DNA of 64,000 nucleotides from Buchnera aphidicola (Sarucallis kahawaluokalani) (GTDB lineage Bacteria; Pseudomonadota; Gammaproteobacteria; Enterobacterales; Enterobacteriaceae). The stretch lies in assembly GCF_005080725.1 (NCBI RefSeq), contig NZ_CP032999.1:89605-153604 (forward strand), read 5' to 3'. The notes beneath the pieces are model-generated. The model was not told where the DNA came from. It made no database searches and was given only the letters and a program-made list of their open reading frames with translations. The position numbers were made by a program, and so were the translations under genes. Below are positions 10,518-56,763 of this stretch, piece after piece (position 1 is the first letter of the stretch; each line of letters begins with the position of its first letter).

Positions 10518-10667
10518 AATATCTCTTTTTTTTTTTTATAAATTAAAAATGAATTATATTAAATATTTTTTTTAGGTACAGTTTTTTAATGTATTTATGT
10601 AATTTAATTTTATATTTTTCTATAATATCATATTATTTGATATTTTAACATTGGTATTTCAAAATAT

Positions 10668-55027: not shown

Positions 55028-55612
55028 TTATTGATAATATTCAATTAATCCTTTTTTTGATGGGTGTATGGTTTTTTCGCCATTTTTCCAATTAGCTGGA
55101 CATACTTCTCCGTATTTTTCATGTAATTTAATAGCATCGATTGTTCTGACCATATCCGAAATATTACGACCTATTGGCAAATCATTAATTACTTGGTGTC
55201 GTACAATGTTGTTTTCATCTATTATAAATGATGCTCGTAATGCAATGCCTAGTGTCGGATGTGCAACATCGTAAGCATTTTGAATATCTCCCTTTATATC
55301 TGATACTAAAGTATATTTTATTTTTCCAATACCACCCTGTTTAATTGGAAGGTTTTGCCATGCTTGATGTACAAATACTGAATCACGTGATACCCCGATA
55401 ATTTTTGTATTTCTTTTTTTAAATTCATTATATAATTGGTTTAATGCTATAATTTCTGTTGGGCATACAAATGTAAAATCCATTGGCCAGAAAAATAAAA
55501 CTACCATTTTTTTTCTTGTTGATTTTCTAAAATTAAAATCATTGATAATGTTTCCATCTTTTAAAAGAGCTGAAGTAACAAAGTTTGGTGCAATTTGAGA
55601 TATTAAGTTCAT
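55028..55612 (-). CDS. tsaA: Typical 2-Cys peroxiredoxin (AhpC/Tsa)
   Basis: Thiol peroxidase that reduces hydrogen and organic peroxides in the cytoplasm. It is 194 residues. The peroxidatic Cys is in MDFTFVCPTEII, the resolving Cys in GEVCPANWKNG near the C-terminus, and the conserved Arg in the LRASFIIDE region. The closest relatives by motif are Tsa-type enzymes rather than E. coli AhpC. The partner reductase is not in this window. Its start is 136 bases from ung, divergent. Confidence 0.94.
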   Translation of the reverse strand: MNLISQIAPNFVTSALLKDGNIINDFNFRKSTRKKMVVLFFWPMDFTFVCPTEIIALNQLYNEFKKRNTKIIGVSRDSVFVHQAWQNLPIKQGGIGKIKYTLVSDIKGDIQNAYDVAHPTLGIALRASFIIDENNIVRHQVINDLPIGRNISDMVRTIDAIKLHEKYGEVCPANWKNGEKTIHPSKKGLIEYYQ

Positions 55613-55748: not shown

Positions 55749-56401
55749 ATGAATGATTTACACTGGAAATATATATTTAATTTAGAAAAAAAAAAATATT
55801 AAATATTTTAAAAATAGTTTCTTTTGAAAGGAGAAAAAAAATTATTTTTCCTAACTCAAGAGATGTTTTTCGTGCTTTTTGTTTAACTCCTTTTCATTCA
55901 ATTAAAGTAGTTGTTATTGGGCAGGATCCTTATTATCAAGATAATCAAGCTAATGGATTGGCATTTTCAGTAAATTTTGGTTGTAAAATTCCGCCATCAT
56001 TAAGGAATATATATAAAGAAGTGATTTCTAATTTTTATTTACCTAAAAACTATTATTTTCATGGATGTTTATCAAGATGGGCACTACAAGGTGTATTATT
56101 ATTAAATTCTATTTTAACAGTGGAGTCTGGAAAACCGAAATCACATGCTCATTTGGGTTGGCAGAATTTTACTAATGCAATTATTTATTATATCAATAAA
56201 TATTTGCGTCAAGTAATTTTTTTATTATGGGGTAAAGATGCACAAGAAAAATCTAACATGATTCATCGTAATAAACATTTTGTTTTGTATGCTTCTCATC
56301 CATCACCTTTGTCGGCAAATCGAGGTTTTTTTGGTTGTAATCATTTTTTTAAAACGAATGATATTTTGTTGAAACAAAATAAAAATGTTATTTTTTGGTA
56401 G
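55749..56401 (+). pseudogene. ung: Uracil-DNA glycosylase, frameshifted at an A11 run
   Basis: Family 1 uracil-DNA glycosylase, which removes uracil from DNA. The N-terminus is in the frame of ATG 55749 (MNDLHWKYIFNLEKKK), which hits TAA at 55800. The rest, from KILNILKIVSFERR onward, is in another frame and contains all catalytic features: GQDPYY with the Asp, LLLNSILTV with the Asn, HPSPLS with the His, and RGFFGCNHF. The switch falls at eleven A's (55786-55796); a twelfth A would join the two frames perfectly. The downstream part has no other defect, so the gene is probably rescued by transcriptional slippage, as reported for other AT-rich endosymbionts. The C-terminus ends slightly earlier than in E. 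coli. Confidence 0.85.
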
Positions 56402-56421: not shown

Positions 56422-56455
56422 AAATACCATAATTTATGGTATTTATTTTTTTTTT
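56422..56455 (+). terminator. Rho-independent terminator of ung
   Basis: A perfect 23-base palindrome at 56422-56444 (AAATACCA ... TGGTATTT) is followed by ten T's at 56446-56455, a classic terminator for ung. The T-run is also the last codons of the convergent grpE, so the two genes share DNA at this point. Confidence 0.7.
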
Positions 56456-56763
56456 ATGGTATTAATCAGTGATTTTTGAGTTAATTTTATCCCCTGGATG
56501 ATAGGGTTATTTTCTAATTTTTTTTCATGTGCAATTTTAGTAATTGTATTAAATTTTTCTATTATCAAAGATAATTTTTCTATAAAATTTTTTAAGTGTT
56601 CACTTTTTATTTTTTGAATAGTATATTCAGATTTTTTTTTTATATTCTCAATATTTGCCTGTGCCCGTAATGTAATATCTTTTTTTTTTTTTAAAATCTC
56701 TTTTAATTTTTCTTTTAGTAAATTAATATGAGTATGATTATTATTATTTTTATGATTATTCAT
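56443..56763 (-). CDS. grpE: GrpE, C-terminal domain missing
   Basis: Nucleotide exchange factor of DnaK. Only 106 residues remain against 197 in E. coli. The acidic N-terminal part has shrunk to an Asn/His-rich start. The coiled coil (LKEKLKEILKKKKDITLRAQ, IENIKKKSEYTIQKI) and the four-helix-bundle part (FIEKLSLIIEKFNTI, IQGIKLTQKSLINTI) are present. The reading ends in Lys-Lys-Lys-stop where E. coli continues RKFGVEV; the beta domain that contacts DnaK is absent and no remnant is seen in other frames. It contains an in-frame A13 (plus T's 56680-56692). It may be decaying, or a dimerisation remnant; a second grpE elsewhere would explain its loss. Confidence 0.85.
   Translation of the reverse strand: MNNHKNNNNHTHINLLKEKLKEILKKKKDITLRAQANIENIKKKSEYTIQKIKSEHLKNFIEKLSLIIEKFNTITKIAHEKKLENNPIIQGIKLTQKSLINTIKKK

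Follow-up and report, generated by a model that had tools for sequence, protein, structure and literature searches.

The window examined here is a 64,000-nucleotide stretch of the genome of Buchnera aphidicola (Sarucallis kahawaluokalani), a single contig of 428,356 bases referred to below as G000. Within it the uracil-DNA glycosylase gene ung lies in the order gyrA (putative), peroxiredoxin, ung, grpE, nadK and tmRNA. The neighbouring 2-Cys peroxiredoxin gene (ahpC/tsaA-like; 55028–55612, minus strand) serves below as a synteny marker and as a control for rate of change. On the other side grpE (56443–56763, minus strand) converges on ung and encodes a truncated GrpE of 106 residues that lacks the C-terminal beta domain, the gene ending at an A10 run that faces ung; similarly short GrpE proteins are found in three genus-mates (G001, G002 and G006) and in one species of another genus (G269), and the protein is of full length in most others in which GrpE was found. 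Between the two genes we read from the sequence an AT-rich inverted repeat, AAATACCATAATTTATGGTATTT (56422–56444, plus strand), followed by T10 at 56446–56455, which is likely the 3′ end of ung. The initial annotation had given ung a good terminator, and the palindrome with its T-run is indeed present, although it is AT-rich with only two G-C pairs, and a terminator scan did not report 56422–56444 on account of the small number of such pairs.

The ung gene itself (plus strand) is read in two frames. The first opens at the ATG at 55749, encodes the start peptide MNDLHWKYIFNLEKKKY and terminates at 55800–55802, while the second, which carries the remainder of the protein, runs without a stop from 55781 as far as the TAG at 56399–56401, its catalytic part occupying 55797–56401. 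The frame changes within an uninterrupted A11 run at 55786–55796, the proposed slippage site, and this is the only break, the remainder of the gene being intact. As the initial annotation had stated, one more A joins the two frames, and with twelve A's the reading proceeds through Glu-Lys-Lys-Lys-Ile-Leu-Asn to give a protein that begins MNDLHWKYIFNLEKKKILNILK and matches Ung: the joined product scores 278 bits against the NCBIfam equivalog NF003589 and the second frame alone 277 bits, for a cut-off of 223. The joined protein can be aligned to Escherichia coli UDG from residue 3 and to the UDGs of other bacteria from their opening residues onward. The same annotation described the downstream catalytic residues as intact, and we find all three motifs of family 1 uracil-DNA glycosylases, GQDPY, LLNSILTV (LLN-LTV) and HPSP.

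Comparison with ten other genomes of the genus (400–500 kb each), nine of which have ung, provides insight into the age of this break. In two of them, G001 and G002, ung is broken at the same codon and with the same offset as in G000; an ATG-x-W-x-EKKK start peptide, sharing the ATG, Trp and E-K-K of the window's, lies in one frame and the core in another, and each gene is one base short. The comparison of run length across sister lineages that had been proposed as a check gives A11 in G001 and A10 followed by G in G002, while in the other seven genus-mates with ung, all in frame, the run ranges from a short one to A9. Downstream stop codons, which had been named as a sign against the reading of ung as an expressed gene, were looked for in ung of the sister species and none were found. 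G000, G001 and G002 form one clade (support 96/89) in a tree of the Ung core and peroxiredoxin, with core distances of approximately 0.34–0.58 neutral substitutions per site, and because the break is common to this supported clade it must be old, predating the split of the three. Where ung has truly been lost from the genus, in G010, it has been cleanly deleted between the peroxiredoxin gene and grpE, leaving approximately 250 bases (L102).

The break is not confined to this clade. Among 50 Buchnera-type species in which ung adjoins the peroxiredoxin gene, a set drawn from the family and from selected genomes, the start peptide and core are out of frame with each other in 21, spread over 10 of the 13 genus codes having a long run. 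In 20 of these 21 the E-K-K-K codons are again where the frame changes, within 10 to 13 consecutive A's. In the remaining species (G301, L066) ung is broken a few codons earlier than the A-run site; we considered this as a break lacking a homopolymer and rejected it, as a T10 run is present. All 21 out-of-frame species therefore have ten or more consecutive A's (20 species) or T's (one) at the break, whereas such runs occur in 14 of the 29 in-frame species and are missing from 15 (Fisher p 3.6e-5). The offset is that of the window in 12 species and the other one in nine, set beside the 14 species that are in frame with such a run. When these three states are placed on the tree of Ung core and peroxiredoxin, at least 15 changes are needed, at least seven changes between in and out of frame being forced by well supported branches alone, and five of the 13 long-run genus codes contain more than one state. 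In-frame ung genes with runs of A16 in L088 (G321) and A15 in L074 (G363) should yield mixed transcripts too.

A missing A in the assembly could also account for such a break, and A-rich runs are error-prone in some sequencing methods (454; PMC3890641). However, an error would have to have recurred identically in the three genomes of one clade, which by itself makes it very unlikely, and long-run breaks are seen in 21 species. The window's genome provides a further control. Our survey of A-runs of at least 10 covered the window together with the surroundings of plus-strand A11 runs, a partial sample biased to the plus strand, and found 83 deep inside open frames, 13 with an in-frame ATG upstream and four at the opening of a frame, the last being two ordinary gene starts, ung and secA. 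A minus-strand run at 10526–10537 of the window and another in L109 were rejected as frame breaks, since an ATG right after the run identifies each as an ordinary gene start. Approximately 96 of the 98 coding runs in this sample are thus in frame, ung and secA being the exceptions, and because so many comparable runs are correct the assembly is very unlikely to be generally at fault where A-runs occur. Taking these observations together, we regard sequencing or assembly error as scarcely credible.

The second exception, secA, lies outside the window at about C1 156693 (L120:1137, L152), where the start peptide of SecA (MFSKIMKFFF...SDSQLKKK) and the rest of the protein occupy two frames that meet at an A10 run; the rest scores 950 bits against the equivalog NF009538, for a cut-off of 814. 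The gene is broken in seven of the 11 members of the genus, each time at exactly TT-A10-C and with the same offset, and is in frame in four, one of which has A11. The genus member from which ung is deleted, G010, has a split secA as well. Unlike the ung run across the group, that of secA shows no drift in length within the genus. An alignment shows the SecA core to be equally conserved in broken and intact pairs, and each of 39 species from outside the genus has an open SecA frame of at least 826 codons, a length consistent with an intact gene, lengths being the property inspected. SecA is essential in bacteria. Some process must therefore restore the frame of secA where it is broken, and ung would benefit from that process too. 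The GeneTack paper, in which Buchnera is not named, includes among its clusters one of SecA showing frame transitions.

The catalytic part of broken ung is constrained like that of the in-frame species. No stop codon occurs in the core (from GQDPY) in any of the 50 species, and the core motifs are kept among them, a few species varying within the search patterns. In the clade of G000, G001 and G002 the pN/pS of the core is 0.29–0.40, compared with 0.28–0.50 for in-frame pairs. Among pairs below 45% protein distance the median pN/pS is 0.49 where both copies are broken, 0.52 for mixed pairs and 0.54 where both are in frame, and the corresponding ratios of Ung to peroxiredoxin divergence are 1.04, 1.03 and 1.05, all of these being simple uncorrected counts over pairs that are not independent. 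A neutral simulation set at the observed third-position divergence predicts that each lineage would gather 11 stops over 190 codons, and not one of 5,000 runs was free of stops, as all the observed genes are. The initial annotation had further suggested that ung would be expressed at a reduced level, lowering uracil repair. Some weakening of this kind may occur, but equal constraint on in-frame and broken copies argues against a large loss of Ung function.

These results bear on whether ung of the window is simply a recent pseudogene. In Buchnera genomes, 10–70% of the genes that are disrupted owe this to a frame break at a homopolymer (PMC3164680), which gives such a reading some initial appeal. 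However, the break predates the split of the three genomes and since then there have been no stops and pN/pS has been 0.29–0.40, while the real loss of ung in the genus took the form of a clean deletion. A recent origin would require three independent and very recent breaks, which the shared ancestry already contradicts. Neither relaxed selection nor accumulating stops, the marks of a pseudogene, are seen in ung, and the break is instead kept between species with no decay of the gene, which is one mark of a slippage-rescued gene in an endosymbiont. We consider a recent pseudogene to be extremely improbable.

The start peptide bears on another possibility, that the catalytic part is translated from a downstream start to give a shortened Ung, the first frame being a leftover. 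In G000 an AAAGGAG lies seven bases before an in-frame ATT at 55841, and among the species of opposite offset there are several in which an ATG in frame lies close to the run. However, the AGGAG is missing from G001 and G002, the core frame has no ATG, GTG or TTG before the QDPY motif in G000 and G002, and the earliest in-frame start of this frame in G000 is a TTG at 55958. Furthermore, all 21 broken species have kept the first-frame ATG and Trp, although in simulation the TGG alone would survive neutrally with a probability of approximately 0.32 per lineage, and this retention disfavours a downstream start, which we judge to be very unlikely.

A more plausible explanation, and the one we think likely to be correct, is that ung is still a live gene whose A-run is truly broken and that slippage by RNA polymerase supplies enough in-frame mRNA for selection to act upon. 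In this model, polymerase would slip on A11 to produce ung mRNAs of mixed A-length; those with twelve (or nine) A's would encode full Ung from the ATG at 55749 to the TAG ending at 56401, and their share would suffice for selection to maintain the protein. The initial annotation had proposed slippage rescue of ung on the strength of its occurrence in Buchnera and Blochmannia. Slippage at long poly(A) is reported to correct 12–50% of the transcripts of broken genes in one aphid symbiont and one ant symbiont (reviewed in PMC5009743). In Buchnera RNA, slippage at A and T runs rises exponentially with run length (PMC5574713). The same study, the single deep survey of such transcription indels in Buchnera, reported no frame-restoring error, which counts to some degree against the proposal. 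For ung, the proposal is strongly supported by comparison, since break, start peptide and core are all conserved, the run is uninterrupted in every broken species, both offsets occur and no conserved frameshift stimulator is seen, although this support is indirect. We infer that correction would happen at the level of the RNA and not of translation, as we do the amount of Ung that would result.

The alternative is that the ribosome changes frame, either by −1 frameshifting or by sliding along the poly(A) lysine codons when the mRNA has A11. A AAA AAA is a good slippery site, and this heptamer is present inside A11 at the frame change. In a cell-free system, sliding of E. coli ribosomes has been observed on A11 (PMC4363877). 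The direction required in G000, G001, G002 and secA is −1, and that all three breaks of the clade could also be repaired by a −1 ribosomal shift counts against slippage. However, the 84-nt folds after the run differ among G000, G001 and G002, with no downstream RNA structure shared between them, and across the wider set the direction is not constant, 12 species requiring −1 and nine, one of them broken at a T-run, requiring +1 or −2. A ribosomal −1 shift could repair secA and the ung genes of the G000 clade, but it would leave the nine species of opposite offset unexplained unless free sliding of ribosomes is assumed. Because both offsets are found, together with the T10 case of G301, a two-way mechanism acting on base runs fits the data and a one-way ribosomal signal does not. 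Transcriptional slippage is the best supported such mechanism: runs of A and of T are both subject to it, bases can be gained or lost, a stimulator is not required, and it is documented on such runs in Buchnera RNA (PMC5574713). We therefore regard frame change on the ribosome as unlikely, though less so than the other alternatives considered.

The distribution of frames among species with long runs provides a further clue. The three states are nearly even, 14 in frame against 12 and nine out (chi-square p 0.58, species being treated as independent), and remain so when each state is counted once per genus code (7/7/5, p 0.81). This near-even spread suggests that the frame at the run has become neutral: a run of at least 10 would yield all three phases, so that its length modulo 3 would be unseen by selection and free to drift while the protein stays constrained. 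We offer this proposal tentatively, as a real possibility for which we would stop somewhat short of claiming the better part of the case. If it holds, loss of the genomic frame, repeated and for the long term, would be tolerable both in a conserved repair gene and in secA of one genus, an essential gene, since expression restores it; the calling of pseudogenes in endosymbionts would change, and the run lengths and phases of ung would provide a natural series for gauging slippage output against selection.

Slippage-repaired homopolymer frameshifts are known in Buchnera and Blochmannia, whereas the breadth of the ung case and its apparent indifference to frame look new. We found no open report of slippage in ung or secA of Buchnera, in a search to which Tamas et al. 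(2008, PNAS) and Wernegreen et al. (2010, MBE) were external. Programmed transcriptional slippage operates in dnaX of Thermus and in IS elements. In common with ung, these programmed systems involve an A-run of nine or more and mixed mRNA lengths (PMC5009743), the latter being what we would predict for ung, but in ung a functional second product is not evident, and the run drifts in length and phase from one species to another. The frameshifts of Blochmannia vafer (dnaX, dnaG, ytfM, erfK and others; PMC3017870) resemble ung in being conserved, recurrent and situated at homopolymers in constrained genes, although they concern three genomes and few genes, while here the symbiont is a different one, ung is joined by the essential secA and the sampling is far wider. 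Closest are the slippage-rescued poly(A)-tract frameshift genes of Buchnera and Blochmannia from Tamas et al. and Wernegreen et al., which, as described in papers citing these two, share with ung one change of length within a long run of A's in a gene that is otherwise intact and kept across species of an AT-rich insect endosymbiont. The ung case differs in that one site is broken in 20 of 50 species, with both offsets, at least 15 frame changes and one case at a T-run.
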